Shown here one piece after another: positions 31,851-38,858 of a DNA stretch of 42,685 bases. Within the stretch, counting starts at the first letter, position 1. The number at the start of each line of letters is the position of its first letter. This DNA is from Bacteroidales bacterium (GTDB taxonomy: Bacteria > Bacteroidota > Bacteroidia > Bacteroidales > Muribaculaceae): NCBI GenBank assembly GCA_014800785.1, contig JAAVFK010000036.1:4659-47343 (forward strand), read 5' to 3'. The position numbers were made by a program, and so were the translations under genes. Under the pieces are notes generated by a model. That model did not search any database. It was given only the letters and a program-made list of their open reading frames with translations, and was not told the DNA's origin.

Positions 31851-33989
31851 TCAGCGAACCACGAGTTTCAGAGACTGCGAACCGCAGGACGCTACGTAGA
31901 GGCCGGCCGGGAGCTGAACGGTCGCGTCGGTAGCCGAAGTCTTAGCTGCGAGACGGCCGTCGAGTGCGTGAACGAGCACGGTCTTTCCGGCGGGGTTGAG
32001 GATCTCGATACCTCCTTCAACGACACGGACTGCGAAATCAGCGTTGACAACCTCAGCCACACCTGCTTCGTCAACCTTGGTCACCTCAATCGAGTTCACA
32101 CAGGCGTTGTAGATGTTGCGGGTTTCCTGACCGCCGGTCAGGTGAAGTCCGATGCGGGCGAAAGTCTCGCTGTCAACGTTGAAGTATTCGGACTCGCGGG
32201 TGTACCAATTGCGGTTGGTGATCACTTCTTTGGAAAGAACCTCCTTGTTGAAGGCGGGTGATCCCTCGACACTCTCAACCGAAGCGGACAAGTCTCCGGC
32301 GAAGACATCTTCATAAGAGCCTTCTTCAGCGTTCCATCTGCCCTGAGAACGCACCGTTACCTTCACGGTGTAATAGAACCCGGGCTCGAATCGCACGGCG
32401 GGAGTGTACATCCAGTCATCGCGCATACGGTCATCGCTGAGAGGCCACAGACACCACATATAGTCGCCGTGGTCGACAGCCCATTCCCATGAGCATCCGT
32501 CGCCGTTGGCATCGTCTATATCAAGCACCAGAGAGAGGAACGGATCGGTGAAGTCAAGGGTCATGGGAGCTTCAAAGTGCGTACCAGAGATGGCGGTGTT
32601 GCCGATCACGCTCTCGCCGCGGAGCGAGCCGAGAACCGGAGTAACCATGTAGAGCACGGGATAAACGCCGTCACGGATAACGGTTTCGGAGAATGAGTTT
32701 CCGACGAAAGCCTTTTCAACAATGAGTTCTTCAGGACCGCGCATGATCTCGTAGCTAACCTGAGAGTGGTCTACGTATCCTTCATGGACGCCGCGCTCGG
32801 GGAGTGTCCAGGTTGCCGAGGCTGTGTCGCCGTCGATTGACACGATGAGGTCAGTCACGCCCTTGGGGGTGTCCATGCCGACCCAGAGATCGATGCCGGA
32901 TGCACCTCCCGCTTCGCCGTCAGACTCTACGTTGACAATGAAATGAACGGTACCATCCTTCTCGATAGCCACAGGAGCCTGAATTTCCGCCCCCGGTTTT
33001 CCGGTGCCCTTGGTGAGCTCGACTCCGTCACCGGAGACGGTGTAGTTCACATCGCCTGTCAGTTCGTTGCCGTTCACATCAACAATGGGGAGCGTGAAGT
33101 TGATCGTACCGGTCAGAGAAGCGCCCTCGAATGAGGCCGATAGGTCGGTGACCGCCGCGGGAGCGGACGCCGAGTGAAGCGTCTGGTCAATGAAGATACC
33201 GGTCAGCAGAAAGTCATACTCGAACTGAGTGATCATGTCAGCTTTACCGGTCGCGAGATCTACACTGAAGAGTTTGGCCCCTTCTGAGTTATTGGCATAC
33301 CAATACATGATATTGGTCTTGTAATCTATAACAGCCGACTGGTCATCCTCGGGAATGAAGCCGGTGTCGCCTACCGGTTCGAGAGTGCCGTTGTATTTAT
33401 CGACACGATAGAGCCAGCCATCGCTTCCGACGCCATACATCTGACCCTTGGAGTCAACCGAAAGCGTATAGAGTCGCTTTGATAGGGGTGCGACGTAAGT
33501 CTTCTTGGCGTTGTCGCGGTTCATCGTCTTGAGAGCGAAGGTAGTAGCCGCGGGGTTATTGTAGTTGGGCTTGTCGATGCTGACACAGAAGATCGTGTTG
33601 GTCGTCGGGTCATAGGTCAGAGTCGCAGCCGAGTCATCGATCACGTTCAGATCGAGACCGCTCCAGTTGTCGATCCAGTTGTAGGTACATTCGGGGAAAT
33701 CGACAGTCTGAAGGAGCCATGCCTCCAGACCCTCCCATTCGACATAAGTGAGGATGCGGTACTTTCCATCGTCTGTATAAACGGCACCATAGTTTCCGAG
33801 CATATCACCGTCAGCGAAGAGGAGCATGGGCTCCGCGCCCGGTTCGGCCTTGACCGAATACATACCGGAGATACCTCCAAGCTCATGATATTTCATGATA
33901 CCGTAGAGTGTCGGGGCTTCAGCTGCGAAAGCCGACTGAGACACGAATGTCGCGCCGAGTGCAAGAGCAAGCAGTAGATTTTTTGCCAT
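31851..33989 (-). CDS. Secreted multidomain protein with T9SS-like C-terminal tail (paralog A)
   Basis: A 712-residue protein with a signal peptide (MAKNLLLALALGATFVSQSAFA). Residues about 25-285 form repeated beta blades (YDPTTNTIFCVS; LYTLSVDSKGQMYGVGSDGW; AVIDYKTNIMYW; LFSVDLATGKADM), suggesting a beta-propeller. Fibronectin-III-like repeats follow (AVTDLSASFEGASLTGTINF; GVTDLIVSIDGDTASATWTL), then a jelly-roll like choice-of-anchor region (SWEWAVDHGDYMWCLWPLSD, RDDWMYTPAVRFEPG). The last 60 residues (GGIEILNPAGKTVLVHALDG, ending LPAGLYVAS...LKLVVR) resemble a type IX secretion sorting domain. It is a close tandem paralog of the next gene upstream. The function is unknown; a surface or secreted binding role is inferred. 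Confidence 0.82.
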   Translation of the reverse strand: MAKNLLLALALGATFVSQSAFAAEAPTLYGIMKYHELGGISGMYSVKAEPGAEPMLLFADGDMLGNYGAVYTDDGKYRILTYVEWEGLEAWLLQTVDFPECTYNWIDNWSGLDLNVIDDSAATLTYDPTTNTIFCVSIDKPNYNNPAATTFALKTMNRDNAKKTYVAPLSKRLYTLSVDSKGQMYGVGSDGWLYRVDKYNGTLEPVGDTGFIPEDDQSAVIDYKTNIMYWYANNSEGAKLFSVDLATGKADMITQFEYDFLLTGIFIDQTLHSASAPAAVTDLSASFEGASLTGTINFTLPIVDVNGNELTGDVNYTVSGDGVELTKGTGKPGAEIQAPVAIEKDGTVHFIVNVESDGEAGGASGIDLWVGMDTPKGVTDLIVSIDGDTASATWTLPERGVHEGYVDHSQVSYEIMRGPEELIVEKAFVGNSFSETVIRDGVYPVLYMVTPVLGSLRGESVIGNTAISGTHFEAPMTLDFTDPFLSLVLDIDDANGDGCSWEWAVDHGDYMWCLWPLSDDRMRDDWMYTPAVRFEPGFYYTVKVTVRSQGRWNAEEGSYEDVFAGDLSASVESVEGSPAFNKEVLSKEVITNRNWYTRESEYFNVDSETFARIGLHLTGGQETRNIYNACVNSIEVTKVDEAGVAEVVNADFAVRVVEGGIEILNPAGKTVLVHALDGRLAAKTSATDATVQLPAGLYVASCGSQSLKLVVR

Positions 33990-34076: not shown

Positions 34077-36218
34077 TTAGCGAACTGCGAGTTTGAAAGT
34101 CTTCGTGCCGTCGGTCACGATATAAAGTCCGGCGGGGAGAGAAACGTATGCGTCTATGGCAGAGGTCTGAGCTGCGAGACGACCGTCGAGCGTAAATACT
34201 TTTACCGAAGCGCCTGCAGGATTGGAGATGCGCAGACCGCCGTCAAGGCCTATGGCGGAGAAGTCACCGCCGATAACCTCGGCCACACTGCTGTTGTCGG
34301 CTTTGGCAACCTCGATTTTGCTCACCAGGATTTTGTAGACGTTACCTTCTTCGATACCACCGGTTGAGTGGAGTCCTACCTTAACGAAGGTTTCCTTGTC
34401 GAAACGGAATGAGTCCGAAACACGGTCATACCATTTGCATTTGGTCACCTCTTCTTTGGCGAGAAGTTCATTGTGGAAGTTTTCGGTCTCGTCAGCGCTG
34501 TCGAGATAAACTGCAAGCTCGCCCGCATAAAAGTCCTCAAAATCCTCTTTCTCTACGACCCACTGACCTTCTGAACGGAGATTGACCTTGACTATGTAGT
34601 CACAATCGGGTTCCAGACGGATTGAGGGAGTATAAAGCCAGTCGTCACGCTTGCGGTCGGTACTCATAGGCCACCAGCATGCCATATAGCCTTCATCTAT
34701 GATCCACTCCCAGGTGCACAGGTCAAAGTTGGAGTCGACAGATTCGAAGCCCATGCAGAGATAGGGGTCGCTCATGTCAAGCGATACGGGAGCGTCGAAA
34801 TGATCGCCGGCGAGAATGGTGTTTCCGAGAACGCCTTCACCTTTGAGGCCCTCAACTATGGGAGTGACGAAATACATAACGGGGTAGACGCCGTCGCGAA
34901 CAACTTTCTCCGTGAAGGTCGTTCCCTCGTAGGAACTTGCCACACACACGTTTTCAGGTCCACGGTAGATCTGATAACGCACGAGCGAATGGTCAACGAA
35001 ACCGCCGTTGATTCCAAACTCAGGGAGAGTCCAGGTGACAGTAAACTCGTTACCTTCTGCGGTCACCAGCAAATCGGTGACAGCCTGCGGCGTGTCCATA
35101 CCGATCCAGCATTCATTGGAAACAGCGGGGCCATCCTCGCCGTAACAGTCAACATTAACCGTGAAGCGTGTGAGGCCGGTCTTTGGTACGGTGACAGCGG
35201 GTGTCACCTTTTCGCCGGGAGTTCCCGAACCGGTAGCAGCCACATTACCATTGACAGACACCTTATAATTGACTGTACCCGAAAGGGGATTACCGTTAAC
35301 ATCGAGCGCGGGCAGAGTAAAGTTCACTGTTCCACTCAGAGAAGCCCCCTCGAAAGTCGGAACAAGATCTTTTACTCCCTCAGGAGCTGTCGCAGCGTGT
35401 GCCGTCTGTTCGATGAAGAGGTTCGTAAACTGATAGTTATTGTCATATCGGGAAATGAACATTGCTTTACCGGTCGAAAGATCGACCGAATAGAGTTCGC
35501 CGCCGTTCGCTTCCGTGAATGCGCTCCAATACATCGTATTGGTATCGTAGTCGATAACGGCAGACTGCTCCTTGCTCGGTACCACTCCGGTAAGCCCGAC
35601 GAGGTCGAGATCGCCCGTACGTTTGTCAACGCGATAGAGACCGCCGTCGGTAGCGATTCCATATAACTGCCCTTTTGCTGAGCAGGCAAGGGCGTGTACA
35701 CGCTGAGGGAAGTCGGCAACCCAAGTCTTCCTGCCTGTCTCGCGATCCATGATCTTCAGCGAGTAGATGTTATTATCAGCTCCTTTTCGTCCGACACAAT
35801 ATATTACGTCTGTGGTGGGGTCATATGTAGTGTCACCTGAGGCATCCCGGAAGAGATCCATATCCTGGAGATCCCGGTAATTATTCTTATAATCCTCGTC
35901 GAAATTGCGGGCCGCGAAATCGAAGGTCTGCATAGACCAGTAGTACTCCTCGTAGAAGTAGAGGTAGGAAAGGACATAGAGATGGCCGTCGTCAGTGTAA
36001 GCCGCGGAGGCATTTCCCTTGAGATCGCCATTACCATACAGGAATTCGGGTTGTGCGTCCGGTTCAGCCTTGAATGTGAAGATACCGGGCCGTGCGCCGG
36101 GTTCTACATTGAGCCACACTCCGAAAAGAGTCGGGGCTTCAGCTGCCATAGCCGTGACAGCTACCTGAGACACGAAAGTCGCGCCCAGAGCTAATGAAAG
36201 CAGTAGATGTTTCGCCAT
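34077..36218 (-). CDS. Secreted multidomain protein with T9SS-like C-terminal tail (paralog B)
   Basis: A 713-residue protein whose start MAKHLLLSLALGATFVSQVA mirrors that of paralog A; the upstream ATG at 36374 would add 52 residues translated from the leader and the preceding terminator. The domain order is the same: propeller-like blades (YDPTTDVIYCVGRKGADNN; VHALACSAKGQLYGIATDGG; VIDYDTNTMYWSA), FnIII-like repeats (TFEGASLSGTVNFTLPALDV; AVTDLLVTAEGNEFTVTWTL), a choice-of-anchor region (WEWIIDEGYMACWWPMSTDR, DDWLYTPSIRLEPD), and a tail with LDGGLRISNPAGASVKVFTL ending FKLAVR. Its own promoter lies at 36284-36314. Tandem duplication with paralog A is clear; the ligand is not. Confidence 0.82.
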   Translation of the reverse strand: MAKHLLLSLALGATFVSQVAVTAMAAEAPTLFGVWLNVEPGARPGIFTFKAEPDAQPEFLYGNGDLKGNASAAYTDDGHLYVLSYLYFYEEYYWSMQTFDFAARNFDEDYKNNYRDLQDMDLFRDASGDTTYDPTTDVIYCVGRKGADNNIYSLKIMDRETGRKTWVADFPQRVHALACSAKGQLYGIATDGGLYRVDKRTGDLDLVGLTGVVPSKEQSAVIDYDTNTMYWSAFTEANGGELYSVDLSTGKAMFISRYDNNYQFTNLFIEQTAHAATAPEGVKDLVPTFEGASLSGTVNFTLPALDVNGNPLSGTVNYKVSVNGNVAATGSGTPGEKVTPAVTVPKTGLTRFTVNVDCYGEDGPAVSNECWIGMDTPQAVTDLLVTAEGNEFTVTWTLPEFGINGGFVDHSLVRYQIYRGPENVCVASSYEGTTFTEKVVRDGVYPVMYFVTPIVEGLKGEGVLGNTILAGDHFDAPVSLDMSDPYLCMGFESVDSNFDLCTWEWIIDEGYMACWWPMSTDRKRDDWLYTPSIRLEPDCDYIVKVNLRSEGQWVVEKEDFEDFYAGELAVYLDSADETENFHNELLAKEEVTKCKWYDRVSDSFRFDKETFVKVGLHSTGGIEEGNVYKILVSKIEVAKADNSSVAEVIGGDFSAIGLDGGLRISNPAGASVKVFTLDGRLAAQTSAIDAYVSLPAGLYIVTDGTKTFKLAVR

Positions 36219-36283
36219 ATATTTTATATTAGGTTTTGCTGAGTAGTACAGAATGTATGCCAAAAGTCCGTATAACTGAACTT

Positions 36284-36314
36284 CAAATATAGTTAAATAG
36301 TTGATGTCCTGAAA
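36284..36314 (-). promoter_or_regulatory. Promoter of paralog B
   Basis: TATATTTG (36291-36284, minus strand) matches the -7 box; TTTC (36314-36311) lies 19 bp upstream. The leader to the ATG at 36218 is about 60 nt. Confidence 0.6.
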
Positions 36315-36332
36315 TTGAGTATGACAAACAAA

Positions 36333-36374
36333 TTGCGGATGAAACGGACCCCTTCGGGCACGCTTCATCCGCAA
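36333..36374 (-). terminator. Terminator downstream of the DUF4465 gene
   Basis: TTGCGGATGAA (36374-36364 on the minus strand) pairs perfectly over 11 bp with TTCATCCGCAA (36343-36333) and is followed by TTTGTTTGTC. Inner C/G runs around TTCG extend the hairpin. Closer to the stop two weaker hairpins occur: CCGTAA/TTACGG (about 36441-36460) and GTCCG/CGGAC (about 36392-36413). The cobalamin-controlled transcript thus probably ends here, before paralog B. Confidence 0.78.
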
Positions 36375-36491
36375 AGTTACAAATAATTTGTCCGTTTACA
36401 AATTATCGGACGATTTTTTTTCTTTGATTCGCATTTTTTGCCGTAACCTGTCTCTTACGGTTTTACGAAATTAGCTGTTCCGGAAGCTGGC

Positions 36492-37475
36492 TCAACGCAC
36501 GACAACCTTATGAGATTTCACTCCGTCGGAAACGATATACATACCTTGCGGAACTTTCACGCTGCCGCTCTTTCCGGACAATTCAGCCACGGCCATGCCG
36601 TTCATGTTGAATACGCGTACACCATTCTCTCCGGCGTTGACGATTGTCAGCTCGCCGATTCCGGGAACGACTCTGAAGGCCGGCGCAGTTACAAGTGTTT
36701 CCGAAACCCCGGACGACACATCTTTCGGAGTGTTGAGATCATCTATGCAGACATACATCGGGGTCGTCGCGCCCCACTCATTGACTTTCGTGGTCTCCAT
36801 CGAGATCTCGAAATACTGAAGCTTCCCGGCGGCCGAGAGATCCATCCATTCCCATGTGTCAAGTGCATAATGGTCGTCGGGATCCTCAGAGCGGTAGTCG
36901 GCGAGATAATATTCGGCCGTACCTGTTACGTTGTCGTCAAAGTCATATCCGGTCACGATCACTTTCAGATAGTCTCCTTTCTCGAACGGGCCGGAATAGC
37001 CGTCACCGTTGAGAACGCAGTATCGTGTCCACGCTCCGTTGGTCACCCACATACCTTCGAGGGTGGTTCCGTCTTCGGGTCCATAGACCCATACCTGGCT
37101 CGGACCCATATAGGCGTCCACATATGCCAATCCGAATGTGGCCGAATTGTGACCGCCGCCGGGAGCACTCTGGAACTGGTCGAGGAAAGAAGTTCCGTTG
37201 TTGGCCGTCACGGACGAGTAGGCATACCATGCCCAAGTGTCGTAGTCCGACATATAGAAGTTGGGGAATTCGAAGTCTCCGCTGCGGAACGAGCCGTAGT
37301 CGTAGTCTTCGTCATCGACGTCGCCGCGCCAGTAGCTGTCCGGGGCGAGTCCGAGGTCTTCAAAAGTCGCGGGTGCCACCTTTTCGGTAGCTTCATTCGA
37401 TTCGCCGACACCCGCGGCTGACGCGCAGGGAGCCATCGCAGCCGCTCCGAGCGCACAGAGGATCAATTTCTTCAT
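36492..37475 (-). CDS. DUF4465 protein with T9SS-like tail, under cobalamin riboswitch
   Basis: A 327-residue protein with a signal peptide (MKKLILCALGAAAMAPCASA) and no lipobox Cys at the cleavage site. The DUF4465-type core (about 35-240) has ATFEDLGLAPDSYWRG, SFRSGDFEFPNFYMSDYDTW, APGGGHNSATFGLAYVDAYM and MWVTNGAWTRYCVLNGDGYS, then YLADYRSEDPDDHYALDTWE and TPMYVCIDDLN. The last 60 residues (GELTIVNAGENGVRVFNMNG, ending PQGMYIVSDGVKSHKVVVR) look like a type IX sorting domain. DUF4465 proteins are linked to corrinoid uptake loci in Bacteroidetes, and some have been reported to bind vitamin B12 at the cell surface. The riboswitch directly upstream supports that role here. No btuB or btuG neighbour is present. 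Confidence 0.83.
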   Translation of the reverse strand: MKKLILCALGAAAMAPCASAAGVGESNEATEKVAPATFEDLGLAPDSYWRGDVDDEDYDYGSFRSGDFEFPNFYMSDYDTWAWYAYSSVTANNGTSFLDQFQSAPGGGHNSATFGLAYVDAYMGPSQVWVYGPEDGTTLEGMWVTNGAWTRYCVLNGDGYSGPFEKGDYLKVIVTGYDFDDNVTGTAEYYLADYRSEDPDDHYALDTWEWMDLSAAGKLQYFEISMETTKVNEWGATTPMYVCIDDLNTPKDVSSGVSETLVTAPAFRVVPGIGELTIVNAGENGVRVFNMNGMAVAELSGKSGSVKVPQGMYIVSDGVKSHKVVVR

Positions 37476-37505
37476 CAGTTGAGAAATTAGAGGTTAATAA
37501 AATGT

Positions 37506-37794
37506 GCTGATGCAGGTCTTCTGGCTTATCATGTCTCCGGGGGCCATCATACATTCATAATATCCAACTTTACTCTTTGTCATATCCCGAAGTCTCCGAG
37601 GTTGACGTCCTATCCTTCCCGGGCGCTGAAACCCAGTGGACCGAAAGAGATTCTTTCGCGACGTTTCGGAGCAGTGTCCTATCGCTGACACTGTCATGAA
37701 TCACAGCAGCGGGTTCTGCGGCCGGTTCTCACGGCCTTCCCTAATGTCCGCCGGGCTTTATTACGACTCCTCGCAGCCGTGGCGGACTCATCGG
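37506..37794 (-). ncRNA. Cobalamin (AdoCbl) riboswitch
   Basis: On the minus strand the leader carries the conserved core TAGGGAAGGCCGTGAGAACC followed by GGCCGCAGAACCCGCTGCTG and TGA (about 37742-37702), then GTCCACTGGG (about 37641-37632), CCCGGGAAGGATAGG (about 37623-37609), and near its 3' end the B12 box TAAGCCAGAAGACCTGCA (37528-37511). These match the conserved segments of cobalamin riboswitches in order and spacing. The ATG of the DUF4465 gene lies about 30 nt beyond the B12 box, so ligand binding probably blocks translation or early transcription and represses the gene when B12 is plentiful. Most of the 37476-37970 gap is this element. Confidence 0.93.
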
Positions 37795-37799
37795 CGCGG

Positions 37800-37831
37800 C
37801 AAAATTATAAAATCCCTCCGACATTTGCAAT
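37800..37831 (-). promoter_or_regulatory. Promoter of the riboswitch-DUF4465 transcript
   Basis: TAATTTTG (37807-37800, minus strand) is a full -7 match; ATTG (37831-37828) lies 20 bp upstream. The transcript should start at about 37794, just before the riboswitch. Confidence 0.68.
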
Positions 37832-37970: not shown

Positions 37971-38858
37971 ATGATCTATTCCATGACCGGATTCGGCAAG
38001 GGGTGCGCCTCGTCGTCAACCCGCCGAATCACCGCCGAAATAAAATCGCTCAACAGCAAGCAGCTCGACCTCATGATGCGCGTTCCGCCGGTTCTGCGTG
38101 AAATGGAAGTCGAGGTCCGTAATATAATCGCCGCCCGACTCGAACGCGGAAAGGTAGACATGGGCGTGACTGTCGAAATGACCGTGCCCGAAGCTCCGGC
38201 CCATCTCAACACCGAGGTGATCGCCGACTACAAACGTCAGTTTGAAGACCTCTCCGACTCACTCGGCCTCCCCTCTCCCGCCGACTGGTACACGCTTCTC
38301 ATGCGTATGCCCGACACTCTGAAAACCGAGACCGCGAAACTCGACGAGGAGGACCGCAAAGCGTTCTGCGAGGCTGTCACTCTGGCTATCGAGGCTCTGA
38401 CCGACTTCCGCCGCGCGGAGGGAGCCAAGCTCTACCGCTTCTTCGTCAAGAAGATCGAGAACATCGGCACTCTCCTTGAGGCTGTGGAGCCTTACGAACA
38501 GGAACGTGTTCCCAAGATCCGCCAGCGTCTTGAAGACCAGCTCGGACGTCTCGACTCGATCGAGTTTGACAAGGGACGCCTCGAACAGGAGATGATCTTC
38601 TATATCGAGAAGCTCGACGTCAACGAAGAGAAGCTCCGCCTGCGCTCCCACCTGAACTACTTTCTGGAGACTATGGGAGGCGAGAACGACGAATTTATCG
38701 CCGGCCAGGGCAAGAAGCTCGGCTTCATCGCCCAGGAGATGGGCCGCGAGATCAATACTCTCGGATCGAAAGCCAACCACGCCGAGATCCAGAAGATCGT
38801 CGTCAAGATGAAAGACGAGCTCGAACAGATCAAGGAACAGGTCCTCAACGTACTCTAA
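37971..38858 (+). CDS. yicC: YicC family endoribonuclease/stress protein
   Basis: A 295-residue cytosolic protein beginning MIYSMTGFGKGCASSSTRRI, the invariant YicC start. NSKQLDLMMRVPPVLREMEV and the C-terminal LRLRSHLNYFLETMGGENDE, GKKLGFIAQEMGREINTLGS and KANHAEIQKIVVKMKDELEQ are family hallmarks. YicC proteins have been described as RNA-cleaving or RNase-adaptor proteins that help decay of small RNAs; in Bacteroidetes this is untested. It heads a plus-strand group with gmk 24 nt downstream, as in many bacteria. Confidence 0.94.
   Translation: MIYSMTGFGKGCASSSTRRITAEIKSLNSKQLDLMMRVPPVLREMEVEVRNIIAARLERGKVDMGVTVEMTVPEAPAHLNTEVIADYKRQFEDLSDSLGLPSPADWYTLLMRMPDTLKTETAKLDEEDRKAFCEAVTLAIEALTDFRRAEGAKLYRFFVKKIENIGTLLEAVEPYEQERVPKIRQRLEDQLGRLDSIEFDKGRLEQEMIFYIEKLDVNEEKLRLRSHLNYFLETMGGENDEFIAGQGKKLGFIAQEMGREINTLGSKANHAEIQKIVVKMKDELEQIKEQVLNVL

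Follow-up and report, generated by a model that had tools for sequence, protein, structure and literature searches.

In our study, a window of 42,685 nucleotides (nt), the whole stretch analysed here from contig JAAVFK010000036.1 of a Muribaculaceae genome (Bacteroidales), was found to contain a cobalamin riboswitch on the minus strand, followed by a gene for a DUF4465 protein of 327 amino acids (aa). In the protein, a Sec-like signal peptide was followed by the DUF4465 domain, a linker and, at the C-terminus, a beta domain. It is best explained as a riboswitch-controlled corrinoid-capture protein exported by the type IX secretion system (T9SS), a reading to which we give a probability of about 0.78. 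The features of the locus were as follows (CTD, C-terminal domain; ORF, open reading frame).

37800–37830, minus: Bacteroidota-type promoter-like site TTG-N20-TAATTTTG, directly 5' of the aptamer (pattern match)
37494–37808, minus: cobalamin riboswitch aptamer RF00174 (cmscan 56.9 bits, gathering score 31.5, E 1.2e-11, model positions 1–189 of 189)
37633–37639, minus: CCACTGG segment of the riboswitch (sequence, aligned to the RF00174 model)
37512–37526, minus: B12 box AGCCAGAAGACCTGC (sequence, aligned to the RF00174 model)
36492–37475, minus: gene of the DUF4465 protein P0001, 327 aa (ORF and translation)
37413–37475, minus: signal peptide, about residues 1–21, without lipobox (direct reading, boundary inferred)
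36735–37247, minus: DUF4465 jelly-roll domain, residues 77–247 (PF14717, 157.5 bits)
36753–36764, minus: HI-loop motif T-P-M-Y, residues 238–241, equivalent of BtuJ1 Thr242–Tyr245 (alignment to 9fct)
36495–36683, minus: T9SS CTD-like domain, residues 265–327 (tail models and predicted fold)

The cobalamin riboswitch and the DUF4465 gene

An earlier reading of the letters (the sequence-only reading) had proposed a cobalamin riboswitch on the minus strand, and the RF00174 run over the leader bore this out: the match exceeded the gathering score, and the core, the CCACTGG segment and the B12 box were aligned to the model in that order. The promoter-like site contained a TTG element, and TTTG or TTG is what we take to be the upstream part of the Bacteroidota promoter pattern. 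This loose pattern occurred nine times in the window, both strands counted, and a sigma-70 promoter scan found no promoter. The sequence TAnnTTTG is given as the sigma-A box in PMC9723704, which also places a cobalamin riboswitch before a TonB-dependent transporter (this and the other PMC articles are quoted from excerpts). Minimum-energy folding of the leader gave no convincing expression platform. A terminator, which had been read after the gene, was not recovered; the terminator scan found none (shuffled sequences averaged 1.6), and the stem at 36441–36460, 3' of the gene, runs into A rather than T when read on the sense strand. Because the B12 box lies only 36 nt from the ATG of the DUF4465 gene and no terminator was seen, the leader RNA would most likely act at the start of translation.

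PF14717 matched above its cut-off, and the domain was found to have the augmented jelly-roll fold. In the HI loop (ATTPMY), T238 and Y241 were conserved in 25/25 aligned sequences. Trp149 was present where BtuJ1 contains the DE-loop Tyr146, and the aligned set contained W in 20, Y in four and G in one of the 25 sequences at this position. The normal signal peptide of the earlier reading was retained, and no lipobox was seen by eye; a simple pattern found none among the best 120 of 189 homologues, several of which bear the name Muribaculaceae. B12 binding has been proven for some DUF4465 (BtuJ) proteins. From these characters we infer that the window gene encodes a BtuJ/DUF4465-family corrinoid-capture protein under a cobalamin riboswitch, as a part of the joint explanation given above.

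The C-terminal tail and a probable type IX route

The C-terminal tail was modelled as a seven-strand domain with the CTD fold, and its best structural match was the RgpB CTD, 2 Z units over the unrelated rows. A search of the genome for T9SS genes, which the sequence-only reading had called for, found the translocon SprA, the sortase PorU and the motor protein GldM, and SprA was present in 117/119 genomes of the family, the window's genome included. PorV (PF19572) gave no match in the genome and equally none in the control genomes, hence this result is uninformative. A second PorU-like C25 protein was observed close to the true PorU on contig C7 of the same genome (L132:4845–8285, minus), with 350.9 bits against the PorU cut-off of 420.

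The scores of the curated models count against a type IX tail. The tail scored 22.7 bits with DUF6383 (cut-off 23.7) and 17.6 bits with TIGR04183 (cut-off 23), PF18962 gave no match at E 1, and the protein was outside the 13 TIGR04183 matches of its genome at E 1e-3. Since the tail scores under the cut-off, the protein was not filed under TIGR04183 and is kept as one that works like its members. The type IX-like tail of the earlier reading thus stood by its fold, its relatives and the machinery, which together point to a type IX tail as far as sequence and model allow, whereas both curated sorting-model thresholds were missed. With such scores, the protein may also be considered as a B12-regulated corrinoid binder of the periplasm, with a C-terminal beta domain that serves structure and not secretion. 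We consider this unlikely, in view of the margin of the RgpB CTD match, the above-cut-off tails in riboswitch-led relatives (below) and the distribution of SprA.

Riboswitches and tailed proteins in relatives, genome and family

Related loci were collected with a profile led by the window protein, and the 80 named loci, which are the best 80 of 321, are therefore biased towards it. A home-made riboswitch motif test (which recovered 44 of 89 known places, with one false match in 480 random stretches) marked 36 of the 80 loci and an iterated hidden Markov model (HMM) of the tail marked 42; 26 loci were marked by both, 28 by neither, and the lipobox pattern by 0. As the motif test was low in sensitivity, Rfam was run on 12 chosen loci, and RF00174 was found just upstream of the DUF4465 gene in eight. 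It was not found upstream in L161, L156 and L144, where only 297, 636 and 150 nt were available, respectively, or in L138 (6,000 nt). Two DUF4465 proteins from genomes of the same bacterial family, the 408-aa L050 and the 344-aa L100, were found behind riboswitches of 119.2 and 88.3 bits, with TIGR04183 tails above the cut-off (25.4 and 26.5, respectively); L100 was under the PF18962 cut-off and L050 was without a PF18962 match at E 0.01. Tails above the cut-off were present in 7/10 scanned proteins, those of L141 and P0005 being below it and L135 having none. The riboswitch and an above-cut-off tail occurred together in six loci, namely Tangfeifania diversioriginum (L199), Maribellus maritimus (L193), Mariniphaga sediminis (L188) and metagenome-assembled genomes of Odoribacter (L189), Bacteroidales (L198) and Prolixibacteraceae (L167). 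The DUF4465 gene was beside BtuB, BtuG-like and BtuH-like genes in three of 13 loci checked (L193, L167 and L198).

The genome of the window contained three riboswitches, all leading into genes for tailed proteins: the one described above, before the DUF4465 gene, and two on contigs C24 and C5. The C24 operon encoded BtuB, a BtuG lipoprotein, a BtuH homologue (identified by its match to 7biz, which we take to be BtuH), a protein designated p325 and DUF5074 proteins of 900 and 450 aa; a methylmalonyl-CoA mutase gene was found two genes beyond this run on the other strand. Against the cut-off of 23, the tail of the 900-aa DUF5074 protein scored 23.8 in the genome search and 20.4 in hmmscan. For p325 the tail match was weak (E 6e-4). 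The 450-aa protein contains an unread residue close to its end and was not counted as tailed. The C5 riboswitch, the strongest of the genome (78.5 bits), preceded a tailed BspA-type leucine-rich-repeat protein of 1,192 aa with a partial p325-like start (L034:4126–7704, plus).

The gene of p325 (L035:8490–9494, plus) encodes a protein for the core of which the local copy of Pfam gave no domain. Its predicted structure had the beta-domain fold and resembled the beta domain of intrinsic factor/transcobalamin, and p325-related stretches open several long DUF5074 and BspA-type proteins. In sequence, 34 members of the p325 family gave no convincing Pfam match, and a sequence comparison with PDB gave none. 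PF28005.1 was precomputed for three of 113 relatives; the local Pfam scan of P0143 did not recover it. The p325 family appears to be little known and may have been described elsewhere, the literature look-ups for transcobalamin-like bacterial proteins having been narrow.

In 43 genomes of the bacterial family, 89 RF00174 places were listed, with at least one per genome and 88 above the gathering score; stricter filters were used, by which weak matches can be lost. One place without a gene before the contig end and one under gathering (G009:C69, 31.2 bits) were both retained. The walk downstream yielded 280 ORFs, of which 277 had complete ends; the three cut by contig ends were left out. With a tail HMM built from 11 seeds only, 39/277 operon proteins were tailed, against 5/311 of the remaining ORFs of at least 250 aa from those stretches (p about 5e-9; genome relatedness ignored; ORFs were called mechanically, and both denominators include some false genes). 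Among signal-like proteins of at least 250 aa the counts were 38/231 and 5/172, respectively. The iterated HMM gave 57/277 against 9/311, and because this count is partly circular the seed-only count is the fairer one; one of the 11 seeds lies among the 277, and no other seed shares its last 40 residues with any of them. At least one tailed protein was found behind 35 of the 88 riboswitches with genes, in 25/43 genomes, by the iterated HMM, and behind 31 of the 88, in 23 genomes, by the seed-only HMM.

DUF4465 occurred 19 times in riboswitch-led gene runs, 15 times as the first gene. Ten of the 19 were tailed, five were lipoprotein-like (four by pattern, one by eye), four had another short ending and none had both. 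Among DUF5074 (BtuG-type) proteins shorter than 420 aa, two of them cut by contig ends, 39/43 contained a lipobox and 0/43 a tail; at 420 aa or more, 27/39 contained a tail and 2/39 a lipobox, one of these two being also tailed. A second common ending, Y-x-N-L-A-G-x ... G-x-N-x-x-V, shorter than the usual tail, was observed in L078, L101 and L102 (riboswitch loci of G017 and G040); the DUF4465 proteins with it had neither lipobox nor usual tail, and it is possibly another sorting signal. Five of the 19 DUF4465 proteins were giants of 2,089–2,345 aa, among them the riboswitch-led L087:6642–13679 (minus, 2,345 aa) and L055:7305–14000 (minus, 2,231 aa). In the two giants that were scanned, a neuraminidase-associated domain and weak beta-helix matches were found besides DUF4465, which lay near the end, and the tails were above both curated cut-offs. 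The presence of DUF4465 inside such surface-type proteins, together with Trp149 in place of the DE-loop Tyr, would suit a real T9SS tail on a protein with another role, e.g., adhesion, and a DUF4465 fold for another ligand. This is extremely unlikely, as eight diverse members were reported to bind B12 (PMC13398666), the HI-loop residues were kept and a cobalamin riboswitch stood in front, likewise in the eight loci above.

The DUF4465 gene of the window was followed by further features on the same strand.

36372–36402, minus: promoter-like site TTTG-N19-TAACTTTG before the next gene (pattern match)
34077–36374, minus: neighbouring ORF, 765 aa, with a similar tail and weak propeller matches (likely true start about 52 codons in)
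31851–33989, minus: 712-aa relative of the 765-aa neighbour, with a DUF6383 tail of 25.9 against the cut-off of 23.7 (profile match)

The tail of the window protein ended in KVVVR and those of the two neighbours in KLAVR and KLVVR, respectively; both matched the same tail models, one of them above the DUF6383 cut-off, in agreement with the likeness noted earlier. The two neighbours are related to each other, lie in tandem beside the B12 gene and match DUF4394/PQQ propellers weakly, and a YicC gene (37971–38858) was found across the leader in the opposite orientation. No transporter had been seen nearby, and this held: no BtuB-type match was found in the window ORFs of at least 100 aa, and a Pfam scan of 28 window ORFs revealed no TonB receptor. 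The riboswitch might be a remnant, or it might control the DUF4465 gene and the two following tailed genes as one transcript, since its score is low (79 of the 89 listed family places are higher) and the gaps between the genes are 118 and 88 nt, over which the mechanical operon walk joined both neighbours to it and placed them among the 277 counted proteins. We regard this as very unlikely, because the core elements are in order, the riboswitch adjoins DUF4465 in eight of the 12 loci checked, and the promoter-like site at 36372–36402 weakens a single transcript. As the next gene has this site of its own, the riboswitch most likely governs one gene, and the 765-aa neighbour would probably be transcribed separately.

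Proposed extracellular corrinoid capture and known systems

In a riboswitch-controlled, T9SS-exported corrinoid catcher, the leader RNA would bind B12 when it is plentiful and the DUF4465 gene would be shut, whereas under scarcity the protein would be made and cross the inner membrane by Sec. The C-terminal beta domain would take it through the type IX translocon. In T9SS, the tail can be removed by PorU, which either fixes the protein to the cell surface or lets it go; the mature protein here may follow either course. The corrinoid would be bound outside, in the pocket of the jelly-roll loops, and then handed to BtuH, BtuG and BtuB encoded behind the C24 riboswitch. A relay from vesicle-borne BtuJ, as the catcher of the cobamide, to BtuH and from there to BtuBG was proposed previously (PMC12751083), and by analogy it fits here with T9SS export in place of the lipid anchor.

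The secretion by another route proposed by the sequence-only reading is supported, but it is less new than was assumed. Of the outcomes that this reading named as refuting, neither a missing riboswitch match nor a genome lacking T9SS genes was observed. The IPR026444 sorting domain was reported on 229/824 DUF4465-family proteins, never with a lipoprotein signal (PMC12751083), so that the single gene is of a known type, whereas the tailed B12 regulon seems new. T9SS joined with B12 capture was not found in the open-licence literature, as judged from titles and abstract openings, and the excerpts of PMC12578637 contained the relevant words in the reference list only. The published proportions disagree: 33% of DUF4465 proteins were assigned as lipoproteins and 38% to a C-terminal extracellular motif in PMC12751083, whereas more than 70% were lipoproteins and the rest periplasmic in PMC13398666. 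The tailed regulon makes this disputed targeting directly testable.

We propose tentatively, at odds just short of even, that type IX cargo forms a layer of B12-repressed capture proteins outside the cells of Muribaculaceae and related Bacteroidales. Three unrelated corrinoid-binding folds (the DUF4465 jelly-roll, the BtuG-type propeller and the intrinsic factor/transcobalamin-like family) would each be joined to T9SS tails, some in surface proteins of 1,000–2,300 aa, and would cooperate with BtuB and the ordinary lipoproteins BtuG and BtuH, the whole being a proteinaceous counterpart to siderophores. Gut communities are shaped by competition for corrinoids. In Bacteroides, the B12 catchers known from the outer surface are lipoproteins, and of the 14 control genomes the one named as Bacteroides was without a SprA match. 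If T9SS is instead the export route of the catchers in a common family of gut bacteria, B12 could be captured at a distance from the cell or on a different surface anchor, and interference with T9SS could block this capture. A B12-switched bacterial protein whose model resembles one half of intrinsic factor would, in addition, be relevant to the origin of that fold.

Among known systems, the RgpB CTD (5AG8, 7PQ4) is a type A T9SS signal, whereas the window tail is under the TIGR04183 cut-off. The cargo of that signal is a protease. BtuJ1 and BtuJ2 of Bacteroides thetaiotaomicron (DUF4465; 9FCT, 9QPM, 9I2L; PMC12751083) are vesicle-enriched lipoproteins encoded in uptake operons, whereas the window protein contains no lipobox, carries a T9SS-like tail and has its own riboswitch away from btuB. 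The proteins with IPR027828 and IPR026444 are like the window protein in their signal, DUF4465, C-terminal sorting domain and absence of a lipoprotein signal, but in the excerpts of PMC12751083 they appear as a count, without riboswitch link, regulon or tail structure. D5EK51 of Coraliomargarita akajimensis (9HMU, PMC13398666) belongs to another phylum, and its solved chain of 250 residues ends with the DUF4465 domain. BtuG (DUF5074 propeller) and BtuH (7BIZ) belong to the same B12 regulon and have homologues in the C24 operon; the known BtuG and BtuH are lipoproteins, whereas most long DUF5074 paralogues in this family are tailed instead.
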